NCBI GenBank assembly: GCA_030123625.1
Contig: CP126121.1
Location: 2,520,179-2,584,178 of the forward strand
Length of the DNA: 64,000 nt
Direction of reading: 5' to 3'
Source: Nitrospira sp.
GTDB lineage: Bacteria; Nitrospirota; Nitrospiria; Nitrospirales; Nitrospiraceae
Shown here: piece by piece, positions 16,230 to 39,673 of the stretch
How the letters are laid out: every line of letters starts with the position of its first letter
Numbering within the stretch: the first letter of the stretch is position 1
Program-made: the position numbers and the translations under genes
The notes under the pieces: generated by a model
Told to the model about the DNA's origin: nothing
What the model saw: only the letters and a program-made list of their open reading frames with translations
The model's database searches: none

Positions 16230-17129
16230 CTAGTCGAGCAGCGCTTGCCGGGCGGTTCGGATGAGAGCGAGGACGGACGGGTGCTTCAGTCGTCGCTCTG
16301 CAGTGATGGCGTAGAAATGCTGTTTGAGAGTCTCCAACTGTCCGATCAGTTGGACACGGTATTGGCGGCAGATCTCTTTCTCGATCACCGACACGCCGGG
16401 GAAGATCCCATGCCCGTCCTGTCCGAACGCTTTCAATGTCGCACTGTCGTCGAACTCACCCACAATATTCGGATGCAGCCCATGGTTGACCAGCCATTGG
16501 TCGAGCAGCCGCCGAAGCGCGGCATTCGATGTCGGGAGGAGTATAGGGGCTCCGCTTAACGACTGCGGAAATCCTCGGCGATATTGTGCTGCCAACTTGG
16601 CTGTCGCAAATAGAGTCACTCCCGATTCACCTAAGGGATGACTGTAGGTGTGCTCCTTGATGCTTGATGGGGCGGGTGTGTCGGCGATTACCAGATCCAA
16701 TCGATGGGCTGTCAGGTCGGTCAAGAGTTGGCGAAGCTTGTCTTCCTGGCAAATCAACCGCGTCGGCCGATACAGCTTCAAAGCCGATTTGAGGAGCTGA
16801 GTCGCCAACGGTTTCGGCACTGCGTCCGCGATGCCGACGACCAGCCGCGTCGGATGTCCATTGCCCTGCCCCTTCACGGTGTTCATCAGCTCTTGACCGG
16901 TCGCGAAGATGTCCTCCGCGTACTTGAACACGAGCTGGCCCATCTCCGTCAGGGCCAGGCGGCGACCTGTTCGGATGAACAGCTTCTCGCCCAATGTAGT
17001 TTCTAAGAGGTGGATCTGTCCGCTGATGGTGGGCTGTGCGAGGCGGAGTTCTTCGCAGGCTTTGGTCACGGTGCCGTGCCTGGCGACGGACCAGAAGTAC
17101 AGCAGGTGATGATAGTTCAGCCAATCCAT
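16230..17129 (-). CDS. LysR-family transcriptional regulator, NhaR-like
   Basis: The 299-residue product is a full-length LysR regulator. The N-terminal winged helix is clear (LNYHHLLYFWSVARHGTVTKA, AQPTISGQIHLLE, LGEKLFIRTGR). An effector-binding domain of two Rossmann-like lobes follows. The LNYHHLLYFW opening is typical of the NhaR subgroup, which responds to sodium and pH in E. coli, but many NhaR-like proteins have other jobs. It is transcribed divergently from the three TolC-like genes with a LysR-type box in between, so it probably controls that export locus and itself. Confidence 0.88.
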   Translation of the reverse strand: MDWLNYHHLLYFWSVARHGTVTKACEELRLAQPTISGQIHLLETTLGEKLFIRTGRRLALTEMGQLVFKYAEDIFATGQELMNTVKGQGNGHPTRLVVGIADAVPKPLATQLLKSALKLYRPTRLICQEDKLRQLLTDLTAHRLDLVIADTPAPSSIKEHTYSHPLGESGVTLFATAKLAAQYRRGFPQSLSGAPILLPTSNAALRRLLDQWLVNHGLHPNIVGEFDDSATLKAFGQDGHGIFPGVSVIEKEICRQYRVQLIGQLETLKQHFYAITAERRLKHPSVLALIRTARQALLD

Positions 17130-17180: not shown

Positions 17181-17271
17181 AACTCCAATCCGTTTTATCT
17201 ATTTTAAAATATCAGCGCGAGGTTGCTACTGTGAGCGCCGTCCGCCACCCAATGTGAAAGGAGCATCCCGC

Positions 17272-18825
17272 ATGATCGCTCTGGTATTGGCCGTTGTGAC
17301 TCTCCTGCCAATGACCGCACTGGCGGAACCGGTGATCGACTCGCGTGCCGTGCAGGCCCAGTCGACTCGCACCGCACCACTGACCATCGGAGAAGTGCTG
17401 GCTCGAATCGAGTTGACGCATCCGCTGCTTCGGGGGATGGGAGCCGAGCGAGCGAAGGCCCGGGCGAAGATCCTCAAGGCGCTCGGGGCCTGGGAACCGA
17501 CGGTCAAGAGCTATTCACAGACCGAACGTTATCAAACGTGGAATCTCACGACGGCTTTCGACATTCCGAGTCAACATACGGGAGGATATAACGACAGCAC
17601 GATCCAGATCGGGCATCCCTGGGGGTTCCGGGTCGAAGGCGGCCTTCGCAGCGGCTACGGGGACGCCGGCAATAACAACCGCATTGCTTTTCCCTCTGAG
17701 CTACTGGCCACTTATCATACGCAACATTTCTACTACGGCGGGTCGTTCCACCTGCTACGAGGCCTCATGGTCAATGAGGAGAACGCCCAGTTTCAACAGG
17801 CCGAACTTGCGGGGCCGCAAGCGGAGATCAAGGTGGCGCAGAAACGGCAAGACCTCTATCTCGCCGGCGCCGTGCAGTACTGGGATTGGCAGGTCGCCGT
17901 CAAGCAAGCCGACGTTGTGAAGCGCGCTTTGGCCGTGGCCGAAGAACGGTTCACGCAGATCGAGGGTCAGGCCAAGCGTGGGCTGTCCTCGCCGCTCGAC
18001 GTGATCGAAGCCAATCAAGAAGTCCAGCGACGCCGAGAGGCAGCCATCGCCGCGCAACGGAAGGTGGAGTATGAGCAGTACAAGCTGTCCCTCTTTCTCT
18101 GGGAGAACAACGAGCCGGTGACGCCGCGACCGGAATGGGCGCCTGAATTCCAGGGCGAAACGCCGCTCCCGACCGAGGACGAGGTTGCGGCCTATAAAGT
18201 GGAGGCGAAAGAAGCGCGGCCGGAAGTGCAGGAGCTCTACATCGAAGCCAAGATGAACAATATCGACATCAAGCTCGCCAAGAACAAACTGCTCCCAAAG
18301 TTGGATTTGGAAGGGGCGCCGCAACCTAACTTCGCGGATTGGATGGTGGGATACCAGTGGCGGCTCGGCCTGCACGCTGAGATGCCGCTGTTCCAGCGGG
18401 AAGCGCGTGGGAAGGTCATGGCCGCGGAAGTGAGCCAGCAGCAATTGGCATTGAAGCAGCACTATGCAGAGCAGCAAGTCACCTTCGACGTGGACAACTG
18501 GCTCTCGGCTCAAGTGCGCGCCAGAGACAGGGTGGCAGCGGCGACGGAAGCGCTGCGGTTGGCCAAGACGTTGGAAGAAGGTGAGCGCACGAGGTTTAAC
18601 ATGGGGGCCACCACCGTGTTATTCGTGAACCTCCGTGAGCGCAACGTGGTGCAACAGGCGTACCAGCTGTATCGGGCGCAGGCCGACTACGCCGTGTCGC
18701 GTGGAGGGATGCTGTGGGCAAGGGGCTCGTTGTCGAAGCCCTGGCCCGAAAGGGAGCTGGCCAGGTACGGGAATCCTCTGACAGCGGCGGGCATGAACGG
18801 CTACAAACAACCGGGACGCGATTAA
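17272..18825 (+). CDS. TolC-like outer-membrane efflux protein, copy 1
   Basis: Forms the trimeric outer-membrane channel of a tripartite exporter. The 517-residue product has a signal peptide (MIALVLAVVTLLPMTALA) and two outer-membrane-efflux-protein repeats rich in long helices (AEERFTQIEGQAKRG, EAALAAQRKVEYEQYKLSLF-type segments, LRLAKTLEEGERTRFN). The start at 17272 is favoured by AAAGGAG eight bases upstream over an in-frame GTG at 17254. The middle of the gene is nearly identical in DNA to copy 2, while residues of about 80-150 and the segment before MPLFQRE differ. First of three tandem paralogues; an ABC exporter and HlyD adaptor follow. Confidence 0.88.
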   Translation: MIALVLAVVTLLPMTALAEPVIDSRAVQAQSTRTAPLTIGEVLARIELTHPLLRGMGAERAKARAKILKALGAWEPTVKSYSQTERYQTWNLTTAFDIPSQHTGGYNDSTIQIGHPWGFRVEGGLRSGYGDAGNNNRIAFPSELLATYHTQHFYYGGSFHLLRGLMVNEENAQFQQAELAGPQAEIKVAQKRQDLYLAGAVQYWDWQVAVKQADVVKRALAVAEERFTQIEGQAKRGLSSPLDVIEANQEVQRRREAAIAAQRKVEYEQYKLSLFLWENNEPVTPRPEWAPEFQGETPLPTEDEVAAYKVEAKEARPEVQELYIEAKMNNIDIKLAKNKLLPKLDLEGAPQPNFADWMVGYQWRLGLHAEMPLFQREARGKVMAAEVSQQQLALKQHYAEQQVTFDVDNWLSAQVRARDRVAAATEALRLAKTLEEGERTRFNMGATTVLFVNLRERNVVQQAYQLYRAQADYAVSRGGMLWARGSLSKPWPERELARYGNPLTAAGMNGYKQPGRD

Positions 18826-18847: not shown

Positions 18848-20392
18848 ATGGCCGCTCTATTACTCCTGATCCTCATCTTGCTTCCCGTGGCGACACTGGC
18901 GGAACCGGTGCACGATTCAAGCGCGTTGAAGGCGCAGTCCGCCCGCACCGAGCCGCTGACCATCAGCGAAGTGCTCGCCCGTATTGAGTTGACGCATCCG
19001 CTGCTTCGGGCGACGGGGGTTGAGCGGATGGAGGCCCGGGCGAAGATCCTGAAGGCGCTCGGGGCCTGGGAACCGATCTTCAGGAACGAGACAGAGGCGG
19101 GTCGATATCAGAGTTGGAATTTCCTGGCCGTCGAGCTTGAGGCTACGGGGGGATTTAACGACACCACGCTCGAGATGGGGCATCCTTGGGGCTTTACGAT
19201 GAAAGGCGGGATCCGTAACGGATTTGGGGATCGCTACACGCAAAACGCCACTACGTTCATCCCTGATCTAAATCTCTTCTATGCTCAGCAACAAGCGCTC
19301 TTCGGTGGGTCGGCCCACCTGCTGCGCGGCTTCATGATGAACGAGGAGTACGCCGACTTCCAGAAGGCCGAACTCGCGGGGCCGCAGGCGGAGATCGCGG
19401 TGGCGCAGAAACGGCAAGACCTCTATCTCGCCGGCGCCGTGCAGTACTGGGATTGGCAAGTGGCTGTGAAGCAGAACGAAGTGCAGCAGCGGACTCTGGC
19501 CGTGGCCGAAGAACGGCTCACGCAGATTGAAGGGCAGGCCAAGCGCGGGCTGTCTTCGCCGCTCGATGTGATCGAAGCCAATAAAGAAGTTCAGCGACGT
19601 CGAGAGGCAGCCATCGCCGCCCAGCGGAAGGTGGAGTATGAGCAGTACAAACTGTCCCTCTTTCTCTGGCAGGACGGCGAGCCGGTCACGCCGCGACCGG
19701 AATGGGCGCCGGAATTCCAGGGCGAAACACCACTCCCGACCAAAGAGGAGGTCGCGGCCTATAAAGTGGAGGCGAAAGAAGATCGGCCGGAAGTGAGGGA
19801 GCTCTACATCGAAGCCAAGATGAACAATATCGACATCAAGCTTGCCAAGAACCACCTGCTCCCAAAGTTCGATTTTCGGGGGGGACAAATGCCGTTCGCC
19901 CTGGACTGGCTTGTGGGAATCGGGTATCGGTTCGAAGCGGACTTTGAGATGCCGCTGTTCCAGCGGAAAGGGCGGGGGGAGGTCATGTATGCGGAAGCGG
20001 ACCAGCAACAATTGGTCATGAAACAGCTGTACACCGAGCAACAAGTCAGCGTCGACGTGGACAACTGGCTCTCGGCCCAAGTGCGGGCCAGAGACCGGGT
20101 GAAGGCGGCGACGGAAGCGCTGCGGTTGGCTAAGACGCTGGAGGAGGGCGAACGGACCCGATTCAACATGGGCGCGAGTACCGTCCTCTTTGTGAACGTC
20201 CGTGAGCGCAACGTGGTGGAACAGGCGTACCAGCTGTATCGGGCGCAGGCCGACTATGCAATATCTAAAGGCGGTATGCTGTGGGCCAAGGGAGCCTTGT
20301 CGAAGCCGTGGCCCGAAAGCGAGTTGGCCAAGTACGGGAACCCGGTGACGGCGGCGGGTATGAACGGCTACAAACGACCGGGGCGCGATTAA
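18848..20392 (+). CDS. TolC-like outer-membrane efflux protein, copy 2
   Basis: The 514-residue paralogue of the preceding gene has the same architecture: a signal peptide (MAALLLLILILLPVATLA), then two helical-barrel repeats. It shares long stretches with copy 1, including the LYLAGAVQYWDWQVAVKQ, RGLSSPLDVIEAN and RPEWAPEFQGETPLPT segments. The C-terminal GMNGYKRPGRD end and the following TTAATTCGGC intergenic sequence are also shared, so the duplicated unit includes the spacer. Differences cluster near residues 80-155 and 340-375, which in TolC would fall toward the extracellular barrel and the channel wall. It starts 22 bases after copy 1, with AAGGAG upstream. Confidence 0.88.
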   Translation: MAALLLLILILLPVATLAEPVHDSSALKAQSARTEPLTISEVLARIELTHPLLRATGVERMEARAKILKALGAWEPIFRNETEAGRYQSWNFLAVELEATGGFNDTTLEMGHPWGFTMKGGIRNGFGDRYTQNATTFIPDLNLFYAQQQALFGGSAHLLRGFMMNEEYADFQKAELAGPQAEIAVAQKRQDLYLAGAVQYWDWQVAVKQNEVQQRTLAVAEERLTQIEGQAKRGLSSPLDVIEANKEVQRRREAAIAAQRKVEYEQYKLSLFLWQDGEPVTPRPEWAPEFQGETPLPTKEEVAAYKVEAKEDRPEVRELYIEAKMNNIDIKLAKNHLLPKFDFRGGQMPFALDWLVGIGYRFEADFEMPLFQRKGRGEVMYAEADQQQLVMKQLYTEQQVSVDVDNWLSAQVRARDRVKAATEALRLAKTLEEGERTRFNMGASTVLFVNVRERNVVEQAYQLYRAQADYAISKGGMLWAKGALSKPWPESELAKYGNPVTAAGMNGYKRPGRD

Positions 20393-20417: not shown

Positions 20418-22016
20418 TTGATCCTTCTCTTGCTGTTGTCATTGATGAGTGTGCCGGCGACCGCATTGGCGGACCCGGTGATCGACTCGAGTGCCGTGCG
20501 GGCTCAGTCGACTCGCACCGCTCCCCTGACCATTGAAGAGGTGCTGGCCAGGATTGAGTTGACCCATCCGCTGCTCCGAGCAATGGGACTGGAGCGGGCG
20601 CAGGCCCGGGCGAAAGTCCTGAAAGCGTTGGGTGCCTGGGAGCCGAAGGTTCGGAACGAGCTCGAATTCGATCGGTATGAAACGTATAATCTGACGAACG
20701 TTTCAGGCGCTCCGAATAAATTGAGTGTTGGCTATAACGATACCTATCTCCAGGTCGGGCACCCCTGGGGGTGGGAGATCTTCGGCGGCATCCGTAACGG
20801 CTTTGGGGATAGAGCCACTCTCATTGGCAGTGGCAACACCCTCACTCCGACTCATGTCCCACAGAGTCCCGCTGTGGCAATCCCGCAAGACCTGCAACTG
20901 TTCTATCCGCAGCAATCGGCCATCGTCGGCGGAGCGTTTAATCTCCTGCGGGGATTCATGGTCAACGAAGCGTATGCCGGGTTGCAACAGGCGGAGATCG
21001 CCGGGCCGCAAGCCGAGGTGAAGGTGGCTCAGAAACGGCAAGATCTCTATCTCGCCGGGGCCGTTCAATACTGGGATTGGCAGGTCGCCGTCAAACAAGC
21101 CGATGTGGTGAAGCGTGCGCTGGCAGTCGCGGAAGAGCGCTATCGCATGGTTGAGGGGAGAGCCAAAGCCGGCGCGGTCGCCCCGATCGACGTGGTCGAA
21201 GCCCGAGAAGAAGTTCAGCGCCGTCGAGAAGCTGCCATTGCCGCGCAACGGAAGGTGGAGTATGAGCAATATAAGCTGGCGCTTTTTCTCTGGGAAAACG
21301 GCGAGCCGGTGACGCCGAGACCGGAATGGGCCCCCGAATTTCAGGGGGAAACGCCGTTACCGAGCGAAGCGGATGTGGCGGCATTCAAGGTGGAAGCTGC
21401 GGAAGACCGTCCAGAAGTGCGCGATCTCTACATTGAAGCCAAATTGAACCTTGTCGAACTGAAACTGGCGAAGAATAATCTGCTTCCAAAGCTAACGCTT
21501 GAGGGGGGGCCGCAAACGGGCGCTATCTATGTTTTTGGCGGGTTCGCTTACAAAGTAGGTGTTTTCTTCAGTATGCCGTTGTTCAATCGGGCTGCCCGAG
21601 GGAAGGTCCTTCACGCGGAGGCTGAGCAGGAACGATTGGCCTATAAGCAAGCCTATACCGAGCGACAAGTTCAGATCGACATTGATAACTGGCTCTCAGC
21701 GATGGTTCGAGCCCGAGACCGAGTGAAAGCCTCGACAGAGGCTCTGCGCTTGGCCAAGACCTTAGAAGAAGGCGAACGAGCCCGGTTTAATATGGGAGCA
21801 ACGAGCGTACTCTTCGTCAACATACGAGAGCGTGCGGTGGTCGAAGCGGCTTATGAGCTCTACCGTGCCCAAGCCGACTATGCGGTGTCTCGGGGAGGGA
21901 TGCTCTGGGCAAGGGGAGCGCTATCGAAGCCGCTGGCCGACAATGTGCTGGCCAAGTATGGGGATGCACTGCACGCAGCCGGTTCGTCCGGACGCAAACT
22001 GTTAGGGCGGGATTGA
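20418..22016 (+). CDS. TolC-like outer-membrane efflux protein, copy 3
   Basis: The 532-residue third paralogue is clearly more diverged in DNA than copies 1 and 2 but keeps the same domain plan. It has a signal peptide (LLLLSLMSVPATALA), the LYLAGAVQYWDWQVAVKQ and RPEWAPEFQGETPLP landmarks and the LAKTLEEGERARFNMG segment. The difference hot spot near residues 80-170 carries an insertion of about 15 residues. The start is TTG at 20418, with AAAGGAG upstream, the same spacing motif as in the other copies. It ends LGRKLLGRD-like, without the GMNGYK end of the first two. A 9-base inverted repeat follows, then the ABC exporter. Confidence 0.87.
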   Translation: MILLLLLSLMSVPATALADPVIDSSAVRAQSTRTAPLTIEEVLARIELTHPLLRAMGLERAQARAKVLKALGAWEPKVRNELEFDRYETYNLTNVSGAPNKLSVGYNDTYLQVGHPWGWEIFGGIRNGFGDRATLIGSGNTLTPTHVPQSPAVAIPQDLQLFYPQQSAIVGGAFNLLRGFMVNEAYAGLQQAEIAGPQAEVKVAQKRQDLYLAGAVQYWDWQVAVKQADVVKRALAVAEERYRMVEGRAKAGAVAPIDVVEAREEVQRRREAAIAAQRKVEYEQYKLALFLWENGEPVTPRPEWAPEFQGETPLPSEADVAAFKVEAAEDRPEVRDLYIEAKLNLVELKLAKNNLLPKLTLEGGPQTGAIYVFGGFAYKVGVFFSMPLFNRAARGKVLHAEAEQERLAYKQAYTERQVQIDIDNWLSAMVRARDRVKASTEALRLAKTLEEGERARFNMGATSVLFVNIRERAVVEAAYELYRAQADYAVSRGGMLWARGALSKPLADNVLAKYGDALHAAGSSGRKLLGRD

Positions 22017-22173: not shown

Positions 22174-23850
22174 ATGAAAGAACCTCAGGGCGAAAGTTAT
22201 CAGGGCCTGTTCGAAGCACTGATGAAACAGCTTTCCGTGGCTATGCGGGCTGAGAAAAAAATCATGAGTCTGATTTTTTCTTATGCCCTGGCCGTTGGGT
22301 TCTTTTCTCTTATCATCCCGTTGACCGTGCAGGAGTTGGTCAGCACCTTTTCCTATGCGGTTCAGCCGGTCATGATTTGGACTCTGACCAGCATCATGCT
22401 GGCAGTTCTGTTGTTTGTCGGTCTTTTTAAGACGTTTCATTTCTATGCGGTTGATGTCGTGCAACGCCGGATCTTTGCAAGAGTAGCCGTGGCGATGGTT
22501 GAACAGCTTCCTCGAAATCGATTTAAAGGAGCGCGATCCGATCTTTCGAATTACTTCATCGAAACGGTCTTCATGCAACGTGCCTTGTCCACGCTGCTCA
22601 TTGACCTGTTGAACGTCGTGGTGGGTGGAACGGTCGGCATGATCGTGTTGGTCGTGTATCACCCGTATTTTCTTGTGTACAACCTTCTGCTCATGGCCGG
22701 GTTTGGGCTCACGTTTTTCGTGCTCTCTCGGGGAGCACTGAAGACAACCCTCGCCATGTCTCACGCGAAGTACGACGTCTTCAATTGGATTCAAGAAATT
22801 TCGCGGAATGCGTTGCAGTTGAAAGCCACCGACAGCCGCCCATTTCTCATGCAGAAGACGAATGATCTTGTCAATCGGTACGTCGAAACCCGGAAGGCTC
22901 GGTTTGCCGTTCTCGTGCGGCAGTATATCGGTTCAGTGGGCGGACAAGCGATTGCACAATCCGGCGCTCTTGCCCTTGCAGCCTATCTCATGGCATCAGG
23001 GCAATTGACCCTTGGGCAGTTAGTCGCTGTTCAGGCGGTGGTCGGCGCACTCGTCATCAATTTCGATTCTCTGATCAAAAACATGGGATATGTGTATTAT
23101 TTTTTCACGTCCCTGACACATCTCGATGAGGTCTTTAGGCAGGAGCAGGATTACGTCTCAGTCGAATCCGCTGTGGCCCTGCCTAAACATTTGACTCAAG
23201 GAGTGCGCGTCACCTGTAAGGGCGTCAGTTTGGTTCATGGCGGAGTGTCTGTCTTTGACGGCTTCAATCTAGATGTCGCACCGGGCGAGAAGCTGGGGAT
23301 CTACGCGCGGACAACGGGGGCAAAAACCGCTTTGGCTAGAGTACTGGGGGGACTCGAAACACCGACCAATGGAGTCGTTCAGTACAATGGCGTGGATCTC
23401 CGGTATATCGATCCAAATGCCATCAACCAATGCCGCAGTGTCATGATCGACTCGCAGTTATCGTTGATTAAGGGAACCATTGAAGAAAATATCGTCATGG
23501 GGCGTTCCTATGTTACCTATGATGATCTGAACTGGGCTCTCCGTTTCACAGAGCTTGAGGAAGATGTCGAGGGGTTGGCACGCGGTGTTAAGTCCGATAT
23601 TTCCATGCTGGGAGAATCACTTTCGCCCACTCACATTGTGCAGATTCTTTTGGCTCGAGCGATTCTAGGACGTCCACAAGTCCTTATATTTGACGGCTTG
23701 ATTCACTCGCTTGAGCCAGCGTTGCGCGAGCGTGTGCTTCGTCGGTTGTGCTCTAAAGATGAAGCATGGTCGGTTATCTTCGTATCGACGGATCCCAATC
23801 TTACGGATCATGCCGATCGTCGTATTATGCTGCACCATGCTCATGCGTAA
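22174..23850 (+). CDS. ABC exporter, permease-ATPase fusion with eroded ATPase motifs
   Basis: The 558-residue protein has a type I ABC transmembrane domain (residues about 25-310, several clear spans) fused to a nucleotide-binding domain. By position it should be the inner-membrane motor of the TolC/HlyD locus. However, the ATPase motifs are degraded. The Walker A region reads ARTTGAKT (K and T kept, glycines shifted or lost). The signature is LSPTH instead of LSGGQ, Walker B is LIFDG with the catalytic Glu replaced by Gly, and the H-loop reads VSTDP without the His. The fold itself looks intact (GTIEENI, LLARAIL). ATP binding may be weak and hydrolysis is doubtful. The ATG start has GGGGGTG upstream. 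Confidence 0.8.
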   Translation: MKEPQGESYQGLFEALMKQLSVAMRAEKKIMSLIFSYALAVGFFSLIIPLTVQELVSTFSYAVQPVMIWTLTSIMLAVLLFVGLFKTFHFYAVDVVQRRIFARVAVAMVEQLPRNRFKGARSDLSNYFIETVFMQRALSTLLIDLLNVVVGGTVGMIVLVVYHPYFLVYNLLLMAGFGLTFFVLSRGALKTTLAMSHAKYDVFNWIQEISRNALQLKATDSRPFLMQKTNDLVNRYVETRKARFAVLVRQYIGSVGGQAIAQSGALALAAYLMASGQLTLGQLVAVQAVVGALVINFDSLIKNMGYVYYFFTSLTHLDEVFRQEQDYVSVESAVALPKHLTQGVRVTCKGVSLVHGGVSVFDGFNLDVAPGEKLGIYARTTGAKTALARVLGGLETPTNGVVQYNGVDLRYIDPNAINQCRSVMIDSQLSLIKGTIEENIVMGRSYVTYDDLNWALRFTELEEDVEGLARGVKSDISMLGESLSPTHIVQILLARAILGRPQVLIFDGLIHSLEPALRERVLRRLCSKDEAWSVIFVSTDPNLTDHADRRIMLHHAHA

Positions 23851-23895: not shown

Positions 23896-25341
23896 ATGGC
23901 TAGCCTAGGTCGCGGTGTCGAAGGCAGCGGGGAACGTGCGCTGGTCAAGCGAGGGGTGGGCTTGGAAGCGATCACGATCGAACAGGGACCCACATTGTCC
24001 AAGTTGCCATGCTGGGAAGCGGTACAGATTCCAGGAGGAATGTTTACGGCATCTCGTGCCATACTGACAATTCTTCTGCTCTTTCTCATCGTCCTTGAGT
24101 TCGTCCCATGGACGCAGACCATCGCTGTGAACGGGAAAGTTTCTGCTTATACTCCCTATGACCGTCCGCAGCAGATCGAATCTCGGATAACGGGCCGTGT
24201 CAAGGCGTGGCATATTTATGAAGGAGTGAAGGTCAAAAAAGGCGATCTCGTCGGCGAATTGGAGGACTACGACCCGACCTTCATGGCACCCGAGATCCTC
24301 CCGCTCTTCGAACAACGGAAGGTAGCCCTGGAACAGACGCGCCAAGCAGCACTCGCGAGGGCGGATCAGCTCAATAAGAGAATCGGGGAGATGAAGAAGC
24401 TGGTCCAAGCCGCCGTGCCCTCCGCTGAAGCAAGAGTGGTGGAAGCTGACAACAAAGTGCGGGAAGCACAGCAGAAGGTGGAACAACTTAAGATCGATGT
24501 GCATACAGCGCAACTCAATGTCGACCGGCACCGGCAACTTGTCAGGGACGGGTTGGTTTCACAACGGGAACTTGAGTTAACGATTCAGACGGAAATCGGT
24601 ACAAAAGCAGGTTTGCAGGCAGCACAGGCCAGTCTGTTGGCCGCGGAGCAGGCTCGGTCCGCCTTGAGCTTCGGACGTGATCAAATCACTGCAGATGTGC
24701 AGCAACGGCTCATGGATGCAATAGCATCCCGCGATGCTGCGGTGGCAGAGGCTGCCAAAGCTACGGAGCAGCTGGCGGATATCTCCTATAGACAGCAGGG
24801 GGTTCAGCAACGGATTGAAGCCGCTAAGCTCATAGCGCCGATGGATGGGACTGTCGTCAAGATGGCTAAGGTCGGTATCAATGAAACGGTCAAGCAGGGA
24901 GAGAACCTTGTCACCATTTCTCCACTTGCCTCAGATCCTGCCATCGAAATGGTCGCTGAGGGGTTGGACGCCCCACTTTTGAAACCCGGGCGGAAGGTTC
25001 GGATCTTGTTCTTCGGGGTGCCGGCCATCCCGCTGCCGGCCTGGCCATCATTGATGGCAGGGACGCGTGGAGGTGTCATCAAAGTGGTTGATCAAATCGA
25101 CGATGGAAAAGGAAATTATCGATTCTGGGTCGTTCCTGACCCGGATGATCCTCAACCATGGCCTGAGCAGGCTCAAGTGAGGCAGGGCACAAAGGTATTG
25201 GGTTGGGTGATTATGAATCGTGTTCCTCTTTGGTACGAACTGTGGCGGCGCTTTAACTTCTTCCCCCCGGATTATATTGAGCGGTCACCAAGTGTGTTCG
25301 AGATGTTCGCACCCAAGGTGGCGGCTCCTGGCGGTAAATAG
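23896..25341 (+). CDS. HlyD-family membrane-fusion (adaptor) protein
   Basis: Periplasmic adaptor that joins an inner-membrane transporter to a TolC channel. The 481-residue product starts with a 50-residue cytoplasmic stretch, then one membrane span (AILTILLLFLIVLEFVPW). A lipoyl-like half follows (SRITGRVKAWHIYEGVKVKKGD), then a long coiled-coil hairpin (residues about 130-310), then the second lipoyl half (LIAPMDGTVVKMAKVGINETVKQG) and a beta-barrel domain. The order TolC-ABC-HlyD matches a type I secretion or efflux operon. The start has GGAGG nearby. Two strong hairpins directly after the stop mark the end of the transcription unit. Confidence 0.9.
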   Translation: MASLGRGVEGSGERALVKRGVGLEAITIEQGPTLSKLPCWEAVQIPGGMFTASRAILTILLLFLIVLEFVPWTQTIAVNGKVSAYTPYDRPQQIESRITGRVKAWHIYEGVKVKKGDLVGELEDYDPTFMAPEILPLFEQRKVALEQTRQAALARADQLNKRIGEMKKLVQAAVPSAEARVVEADNKVREAQQKVEQLKIDVHTAQLNVDRHRQLVRDGLVSQRELELTIQTEIGTKAGLQAAQASLLAAEQARSALSFGRDQITADVQQRLMDAIASRDAAVAEAAKATEQLADISYRQQGVQQRIEAAKLIAPMDGTVVKMAKVGINETVKQGENLVTISPLASDPAIEMVAEGLDAPLLKPGRKVRILFFGVPAIPLPAWPSLMAGTRGGVIKVVDQIDDGKGNYRFWVVPDPDDPQPWPEQAQVRQGTKVLGWVIMNRVPLWYELWRRFNFFPPDYIERSPSVFEMFAPKVAAPGGK

Positions 25342-37942: not shown

Positions 37943-39673
37943 TCAAATGGGCGATTCGTTCAATCGAACGGTATACAGGTAGTGGTACAGACCTTTACGG
38001 TCCAGAAGTTGGGCGTGTGTGCCTTCCTCGACCAATTCCCCCTTATCCAGGACCAGAATTCTGTCGGCACGCTGAATGGTCGACAGTCGGTGGGCGACGA
38101 CGAAGGTTGTGCGGCCTTCCATGAGGCGTTGAAGGGCTTCCTGAACCAGCCGTTCCGATTCGGTATCCAGCGACGAGGTCGCTTCATCCAGTAACAAAAT
38201 GCGAGGATTCTTCAAGATCGCCCGAGCGATCGCGATTCGTTGGCGTTGTCCCCCTGAGAGGTTGACTCCCTTCTCGCCCACCAGAGTTTGATAGCCGTCC
38301 GGCAAGCTCGTGATGAAGCCATGAGCATGAGCAGCTTTGCTTGCTTCCACTATCTTGGCTTCATTTGCTGCCATATTGCCGTAGCGGATGTTGTCGAGGA
38401 TGGTACCCCCAAAAAGGATTGTTTCTTGTGGGACGAGAGCAATCTGTCGGTACCAGCTCTCAACGGTGACATGGCGCAAGTCTTTGCCGTCGATCGTGAT
38501 GCGACCTTCCGTTGGGTCATAGAAACGGTGAAGGAGGTTGATCAGAGTGGTCTTGCCCGCACCGGTAGGTCCAACCAAGGCGACGAGTTCGCCGGCTTTC
38601 GCTTCGAATGAGAGATTTGATAATACCGGGTGTTGAGGATCGTAGCCAAAGCCGACCCCCTCGACCCGGACATGGCCTTCAACTATGGAGAGACTCTGTG
38701 CCTCGGGTTGATCCGCAATTTCCGGCTGTGCATCGAGAATCTCAAAGACACGCTGCATGGCACCTTGTGCTTCTTTGAGCTGCGTAAAGATGCGAGCTCC
38801 TGAACTGAATGGACCGATCAGGATGCCGGCAAAGAGAACGAAGGCGAAAAGCTCCCCCGGCGTGACGCTTCCTTCGATGACCTGCCGACCGCCGTACCAC
38901 AGCACCGCTGCTGCTGCGGAAAACGTGACCAGGCTGATCACCGGAATGAACACGGCCATGATGCCTGCCCGATGCAGGGTGAGACGAAGAGTGTCGTTCA
39001 CCTGGGCGGCGAAGCGGGTTTCTTCCCGTTGCATCTGCACGAACGATTTGACGATGCGAATGCCGGATATCACTTCTTCGACAAGGGTGCTGAGCGCGGC
39101 GGTGTGGTCTTGAATCGACGTGGAAAGAGATTTCAGCCTGCGACCGAATACCTTGGCGACAAGGACCAACAACGGGAGCAGGATCAGAATCAGGAGGCAA
39201 AGACGCCAATTCATCATCAGCAGAAACGTGATGCCGCCAACGAACGTCACGAGTTGTTTGACACTGTCGATGGGAGTTTCTGTGACAATGGATTGAATGA
39301 CTGTGACGTCGTTCATCACGCGCGATAGCAACTCTCCGGTTCGTCGCCGGGCGAAAAAACTGACCGCTAATGTCTGCAGATGGGCGAAGAGATGTTTGCG
39401 GAAGTCGGCGACAATGTACTGAGAAACCCACGCAGTCAGGTAGCTATGGCCCATTGAACACAAACCCTGCAAGATCACCAGGCCAAGGAACAGGCCGATC
39501 GACCGAGTCATCTGGTCGGCGTCGTGTTGAATAGTGACGATATCCCAAAGGGTGCCGGCCAGCCGCACCAAGGCCAGATTAATGAGCGCAACCCCGCTCA
39601 CCAAGAGCCCGGCCAGCATCAAACGTGTCAGATAAGGGCGGACGAACGGAAGAAATCGTTTGAAGATCAACAT
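37943..39673 (-). CDS. ABC exporter, MsbA-like permease-ATPase
   Basis: The 576-residue protein has six membrane spans (residues about 15-310) and a full ATPase domain with Walker A GPTGAGKTT, Q-loop VPQETILFGGTILDNI, signature LSGGQRQRIAIARAI, Walker B ILLLDEATSSLD and the H-loop VAHRLST. It is a typical homodimeric lipid or drug exporter, with MsbA lipid flippase the closest familiar relative. Its intact motifs contrast with the degenerate exporter at 22174-23850. No strong ribosome-binding site is visible. It appears to stand alone. Confidence 0.9.
   Translation of the reverse strand: MLIFKRFLPFVRPYLTRLMLAGLLVSGVALINLALVRLAGTLWDIVTIQHDADQMTRSIGLFLGLVILQGLCSMGHSYLTAWVSQYIVADFRKHLFAHLQTLAVSFFARRRTGELLSRVMNDVTVIQSIVTETPIDSVKQLVTFVGGITFLLMMNWRLCLLILILLPLLVLVAKVFGRRLKSLSTSIQDHTAALSTLVEEVISGIRIVKSFVQMQREETRFAAQVNDTLRLTLHRAGIMAVFIPVISLVTFSAAAAVLWYGGRQVIEGSVTPGELFAFVLFAGILIGPFSSGARIFTQLKEAQGAMQRVFEILDAQPEIADQPEAQSLSIVEGHVRVEGVGFGYDPQHPVLSNLSFEAKAGELVALVGPTGAGKTTLINLLHRFYDPTEGRITIDGKDLRHVTVESWYRQIALVPQETILFGGTILDNIRYGNMAANEAKIVEASKAAHAHGFITSLPDGYQTLVGEKGVNLSGGQRQRIAIARAILKNPRILLLDEATSSLDTESERLVQEALQRLMEGRTTFVVAHRLSTIQRADRILVLDKGELVEEGTHAQLLDRKGLYHYLYTVRLNESPI

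Follow-up and report, generated by a model that had tools for sequence, protein, structure and literature searches.

The window, by which we mean the whole analyzed stretch of 64,000 nucleotides from Nitrospira sp., contains a gene cluster that reads TolC-TolC-TolC-pseudo-ABC-HlyD on one strand, with a LysR gene of the NhaR type transcribed divergently (Table 1). Placement of triplicated TolC genes on one side of the ABC-like gene and an HlyD gene on the other had been proposed in an earlier inspection made without database searches (here called the sequence-only reading), and matches to the Pfam families OEP and HlyD_3 confirm it. The HlyD-like gene also scored 58 bits against the NCBIfam model TIGR01843 (type_I_hlyD), below the cutoff of 209. 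The locus brings together the ABC, HlyD, and TolC genes that characterize type I secretion systems (T1SS) by gene content. Counts of promoters and terminators around the pseudo-ABC region were not above chance.

Table 1. Positions, in window coordinates, of the genes, domains, and motifs of the pseudo-ABC cluster
Feature	Position	Strand	Evidence or remark
NhaR-type LysR regulator, divergent from operon	16230..17129	-	NCBIfam NF008284 NhaR 245 bits, cutoff 219
TolC-like outer-membrane channel, copy 1	17254..18825	+	Pfam OEP E 4e-30
TolC-like outer-membrane channel, copy 2	18848..20392	+	Pfam OEP E 9e-28; 73% identical to copy 1
TolC-like outer-membrane channel, copy 3	20418..22016	+	Pfam OEP E 6e-34; 66% identical to copy 1
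Pseudo-ABC exporter, 558 aa	22174..23850	+	Predicted type IV ABC exporter fold, degenerate NBD
Pseudo-ABC membrane domain, residues 1-335	22174..23178	+	More widely conserved part; stands alone in three relatives
Pseudo-nucleotide-binding domain (pseudo-NBD), residues 336-558	23179..23847	+	Pfam ABC_tran 35.6 bits
Degenerate Walker A, ARTTGAKT, residues 378-385	23305..23328	+	Alignment with same-genome exporters
Q-loop position, Asp (D426) replacing Gln	23449..23451	+	Asp in 142/153 family members, Gln in 0/153
Degenerate ABC signature, LSPTH, residues 483-487	23620..23634	+	Alignment with same-genome exporters
Degenerate Walker B, VLIFDG; catalytic Glu replaced by Gly508, Asp507 kept	23680..23697	+	Alignment with same-genome exporters
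Degenerate H-loop, VSTDP, no His	23782..23796	+	Alignment with same-genome exporters
HlyD-like periplasmic adaptor (membrane fusion protein)	23896..25341	+	Pfam HlyD_3 E 9.5e-05

The pseudo-ABC reading frame (22168/22174-23850, + strand) is uninterrupted and free of frameshifts; a frameshift or a motif hidden on the opposite strand was ruled out, the reverse strand being interrupted by stops. Pfam recovered ABC_tran in the protein above the cutoff, with 35.6 bits compared to 121 bits for the window's intact exporter, and ABC_membrane below the cutoff, with 18.9 bits. An AlphaFold2 model had a mean pLDDT of 73, with most of the NBD above 80 and lower values in the membrane part, and resembled ABC exporters over its whole length, in keeping with the intact exporter fold described in the sequence-only reading. 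The best Foldseek match of the model was an HlyB chain (8dck_A, E 1e-19), while VIA-align gave Z values of about 23 to 25 for TAP, TM287/288, IrtAB, and PCAT1, the best being TAP (Z about 25); comparison of the model thus places HlyB, PCAT1, and TAP as the closest solved relatives. By its predicted fold the protein is a type IV ABC exporter. The NCBIfam models for T1SS permease/ATPases TIGR01846, TIGR01842, and TIGR03375 scored 82, 95, and 107 bits, all three below their cutoffs of 726, 510, and 693 bits, and the 558-aa protein has no C39-like domain.

Motif positions in the pseudo-NBD were assigned by aligning it with five exporters from the same genome, which at the aligned columns carry GxxGxGK[ST], Q, LSGGQ/LSGGE/LSVGQ/LSIGE, DE, and H, the signature variants LSGGE, LSVGQ, and LSIGE occurring in three of the five. 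The losses listed in the sequence-only reading (ARTTGAKT at Walker A, LSPTH at the signature, LIFDG at Walker B, and VSTDP at the H-loop) all fell at the correct columns, and the alignment added another, the exchange of the Q-loop Gln for Asp (D426). All three glycines of the Walker A motif are gone, and its Lys and Thr are retained; because these two residues and the Walker B Asp survive, weak nucleotide binding by the window copy may persist. An MsbA-like ABC exporter with all motifs present is encoded in the same window (37943-39673, - strand), which argues against a general sequence error.

Relatives of pseudo-ABC were identified by protein search in 39 of 59 related genomes, and a profile search matched 111 of the 395 Nitrospirota genomes sampled; the listed carriers fall into two families within a single order. 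Two individual records stand apart: a Nitrospira-like pseudo-ABC gene lies on a contig titled Acidimicrobiia, possibly misbinned (L130), and the gene of one low-completeness genome is interrupted by a TAA (L042:5873-7657). We surveyed the motifs in 153 distinct family NBDs that are full length or nearly so, and none of them has a complete Walker A, an LSGGQ, a Q-loop Gln, or an H-loop His, whereas these are intact in 5/5 of the same-genome exporters. A Glu occupies the Walker B Glu column in only 2/153, both of which lack the preceding Asp. Retention is greatest for the Walker A Lys (122/153) and the Walker B Asp (117/153), and GK[ST] is kept in 18/153, some paralogues among them. The designation "pseudo-ATPase" made from the window alone is therefore well supported by sequence, with no intact motif set among these NBDs and a degeneracy that is shared among orthologues and not confined to one strain. 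These proteins are also a warning for pipelines that annotate an "ABC transporter ATP-binding protein."

Because the motifs for ATP hydrolysis were lost together, hydrolysis at the family's pseudo-NBDs is unlikely. The retained Lys, Asp, and GK[ST] residues would be what one expects if the pseudo-NBD still bound ATP, and perhaps slowly hydrolyzed it, by a noncanonical mechanism; we consider this improbable, as no member keeps the signature, the Q-loop Gln, or the H-loop His and almost none the catalytic Glu, the sphingomonad members described below have lost the Lys as well, and three members have lost the whole domain.

The domain nevertheless does not appear to be decaying. Pairwise Nei-Gojobori comparisons of the window gene with 12 orthologues of its clade, which are mutually nonindependent and include one saturated NBD pair, gave a median dN/dS of 0.033 in the NBD and of 0.078 in the membrane domain, values which indicate that strong purifying selection acts on the pseudo-NBD and that it is maintained and used. 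Decay or a sequencing artifact in a single strain is refuted as the source of the degeneracy, its likelihood being close to nil: the degenerate state is conserved over 38 to 96% identity in many independent assemblies, the NBD dN/dS is about 0.03, and an intact exporter is present in the same window.

The gene neighborhood is conserved together with the degeneracy. Among the Nitrospirota loci with at least 7.5 kb of flank on each side (46, the window included), HlyD and TolC genes occur within 8.5 kb of pseudo-ABC in 46/46, so that orthologues with degenerate motifs keep the neighbors on which the sequence-only reading had based its view of the locus. Within the window's own clade NhaR is found in 22/22 loci and three TolC copies in 21/22.

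Relatives also occur beyond this phylum. A tblastn search of plasmid records, made with the whole protein and then with membrane domains only, returned a coherent group of relatives from Bacteroidota (Persicobacter, Aureibacter, and Riemerella) and from Alphaproteobacteria (Novosphingobium, Sphingobium, Sphingomonas, Sphingopyxis, and Croceicoccus), and same-strand HlyD-like and TolC-like genes follow pseudo-ABC in 10 of the 11 plasmid records examined. In the record of Sphingobium sp. TKS pTK1 (L192) an IS3 transposase is annotated about where the pseudo-ABC reading frame ends and no HlyD or TolC gene follows, so this operon may be broken. The NBDs are degenerate in 11/11 plasmid records, most strongly in the sphingomonads, which have lost the Walker A Lys too. 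Pfam ABC_tran scores form a gradient that falls from 121 bits for the intact window exporter through Riemerella (62) and Persicobacter (55) to the window protein (36), ending with 17 bits in Novosphingobium and no match in Sphingobium. Common descent cannot rest on identity, since the pseudo-ABC proteins share only 23 to 27% across phyla; our case for it rests on shared positions, the operon, and the specificity of the search, and not on a tree. The family shows little or no variation at positions such as P49, Q53, H163, F166, Q250, G281, and A285, and most of these residues are absent from the intact exporters of the genome. As judged from these comparisons, pseudo-ABC is an ancient family that spans three bacterial phyla, with no checked ATPase domain intact, and it is both conserved and unusual.

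In three genomes of a single genus (G054, G056, and G378) the reduction goes further: their genes, of 337 to 346 aa, encode the membrane domain only and stand in the order HlyD-TolC-membrane domain; no NBD remnant was found downstream of these genes in the two loci L049 and L050. We compared the three NBD-less proteins with six full-length sisters over the presumed coupling-helix regions (residues 105-125 and 203-223). Invariant positions were changed in the NBD-less members at 8/13 sites in these segments compared to 10/137 elsewhere (Fisher P 8e-6), and positions changed in all three at 5/13 compared to 6/137 (P 8e-4), P values that are indicative only, the segments having been picked with the alignment in view and the three genomes being closely related. 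This erosion fits a history in which the NBD was lost and constraint on the docking surface then weakened; by implication, the pseudo-NBD of full-length members probably still docks.

The sequence-only reading had left three roles for the protein, as a regulatory pseudo-ATPase, as a partner of another ATPase, or as a transporter with a different energy source. The last of these gains from the NBD-less members, which keep the operon. The second loses ground, as no dedicated partner ATPase was found in the neighborhood or by co-conservation; the smallest carrier genomes (G213 and G340) have only two intact exporters in common. An exporter energized in trans, in which ATP hydrolysis would come from an intact ABC exporter encoded elsewhere and paired with pseudo-ABC, has the attraction that heterodimeric exporters with a single degenerate site are familiar, TmrAB being an example (PMC8277102). 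Those two shared exporters, moreover, are intact orthologues of window 37943-39673 and of L211, and the former lies roughly 13 to 23 kb from pseudo-ABC in several genomes of the same taxonomic family. Both look like general housekeeping genes, however, and the operon contains no intact ABC gene. Tandem pseudo-ABC pairs in other genera are degenerate in both copies, the NBD-less members are unable to form an NBD heterodimer, and degenerate partners in the known heterodimers generally retain Walker A, unlike this family. We regard pairing of this kind as unlikely. The HlyB encoded in the same genome was ruled out as a partner, as it is absent from the small carrier genomes.

Downstream of the stand-alone pseudo-ABC paralogues in four loci (L040, L173, L174, and L178) lie genes for a histidine kinase and a sigma-54 response regulator. 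In three other loci (L046, L048, and L172) the stand-alone paralogue adjoins a gene for a CPA2 cation/H+ antiporter, and neither HlyD nor TolC was detected in the vicinity. The tandem pairs (L164:6838-10416, L166, L167, L169, and L170) are mostly followed by a gene for a 4HB_MCP-type membrane sensor, which also follows the operon in many loci, and an NhaR or other LysR gene adjoins the operon in several lineages. These associations with signaling genes (kinase and response regulator, membrane sensor, and LysR gene) would suit a passive or gated conduit, or an envelope-spanning sensor, that no longer pumps and in which the pseudo-NBD is a regulatory domain. The conserved triad with HlyD and TolC is pump architecture, however; paralogues without HlyD/TolC may have separate roles, and LysR neighbors are common for efflux pumps too. 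A conduit or sensor therefore seems doubtful to us, if slightly less so than energizing by a partner in trans.

A second recurrent association is with DabA, an inorganic-carbon transporter subunit. DabA lies within 12 kb of pseudo-ABC in 4 of 56 gene pairs of related genomes compared to 0.39 expected by chance (P about 0.008 when counted as three events, two of the four being close relatives), and the NBD-less genome G378 (L216) adds another linkage of the same arrangement. DabA/DabB genes lie beside the pseudo-ABC cluster in three Nitrospirota groups (L049, L050, L216, L217, and L218), and in a second phylum, in Sphingobium sp. KCTC 72723 pHAL16 (L193:5-8942), they form part of a single cluster, DabB-DabA-pseudo-ABC-HlyD-TolC-LysR. 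In the window's own genome DabA is unlinked to pseudo-ABC. NhaR is described as a high-salt and high-pH regulator in Escherichia coli (PMC6307784), and by genomic association the NhaR-type regulator and the recurrent DabA/DabB linkage hint at a role in pH, Na+, or inorganic-carbon physiology.

We propose that pseudo-ABC, descended from type I secretion ABC exporters, serves as the inner-membrane component of a tripartite exporter whose other parts are an HlyD-type adaptor and a TolC-type channel. The pseudo-NBDs would form a structural or regulatory cytoplasmic dimer docked onto the coupling helices, and alternating access of the membrane domain would be powered by an ion gradient (H+ or Na+) and not by hydrolysis at the pseudo-NBDs, so that the machine would work as a pump resembling a secondary transporter that feeds the HlyD/TolC conduit. 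We put the probability of this reading, an exporter driven by an ion gradient without ATP hydrolysis of its own, at about one in two. An extension of it is more tentative and, in our estimate, somewhat more likely wrong than right: tripartite exporters in several phyla would record the passage of an ABC-derived pump to an ion-driven secondary transporter that still docks HlyD and TolC, with successive states of the NBD, from partly to fully degenerate to absent, preserved in living members and with a tie to DAB inorganic-carbon uptake. An ion gradient is the most likely driving force in our analysis because of the ionic gene context, which comprises the NhaR-type regulator, the CPA2 antiporter beside stand-alone paralogues, and the DabA/DabB neighbors, together with two precedents: LmrA without its NBD is described as a proton-coupled secondary transporter (PMC2704374), and SbmA, a natural protein related to the ABC membrane domain, is reported to lack an NBD and to be driven by protons (PMC13316013).

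By definition, type I secretion and ABC exporters are regarded as ATP-driven, and a widespread family linked to HlyD and TolC whose ATPase is dead or absent would be a natural case for testing how the membrane domain of an ABC protein can be powered without ATP. Our search of open-licence literature, limited and judged mostly by titles and abstracts, showed no description of this family among the papers listed, and its novelty is accordingly provisional. Its parts are already known (the ABC exporter fold, HlyD, and TolC), and NBD-independent transport by ABC-type proteins has precedents.

Among characterized systems, the HlyB/HlyD/TolC type I secretion apparatus is similar in having the same three gene classes per locus and in supplying the HlyB chain that tops the Foldseek list, but pseudo-ABC lacks the NBD motifs and the C39-like domain and scores far under the NCBIfam T1SS cutoffs. 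The heterodimers TmrAB and TM287/288 are likewise exporters with a degenerate NBD; ATP binding is kept at their degenerate site, and they have an intact partner subunit, whereas none adjoins the pseudo-ABC genes. EmrAB-TolC is a tripartite pump that uses protons to drive efflux by way of an HlyD-type adaptor and TolC, an architecture that the pseudo-ABC operon shares, but its inner-membrane pump is an MFS protein and not ABC-derived. The isolated membrane domain of LmrA (LmrA-MD) is reported as an ABC exporter membrane domain able to run as a secondary transporter (PMC2704374), although it is engineered, Gram-positive, and without adaptor or channel, while the pseudo-ABC family lost its ATPase or its NBD naturally.

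SbmA/BacA proteins (SLiPTs) are proton-driven peptide transporters; they are described as ATP-independent, with a membrane domain of the ABC exporter type, and are proposed to have originated by loss of the NBD from a full ABC transporter (PMC13316013); for pseudo-ABC, ATP-free operation is our inference. Membership of the family in SbmA/BacA was ruled out, as the Pfam model matched neither the window protein (E up to 0.1) nor two of the membrane-domain-only proteins (E up to 1). SLiPTs are NBD-less importers with a TM0 and a glutamate ladder, whereas pseudo-ABC sits in HlyD/TolC operons, and the window protein, unlike SLiPTs, keeps a pseudo-NBD, although three of its relatives have none. If our proposal is true, pseudo-ABC exporters would be a second natural route, in the direction of export, to what SbmA shows for import.
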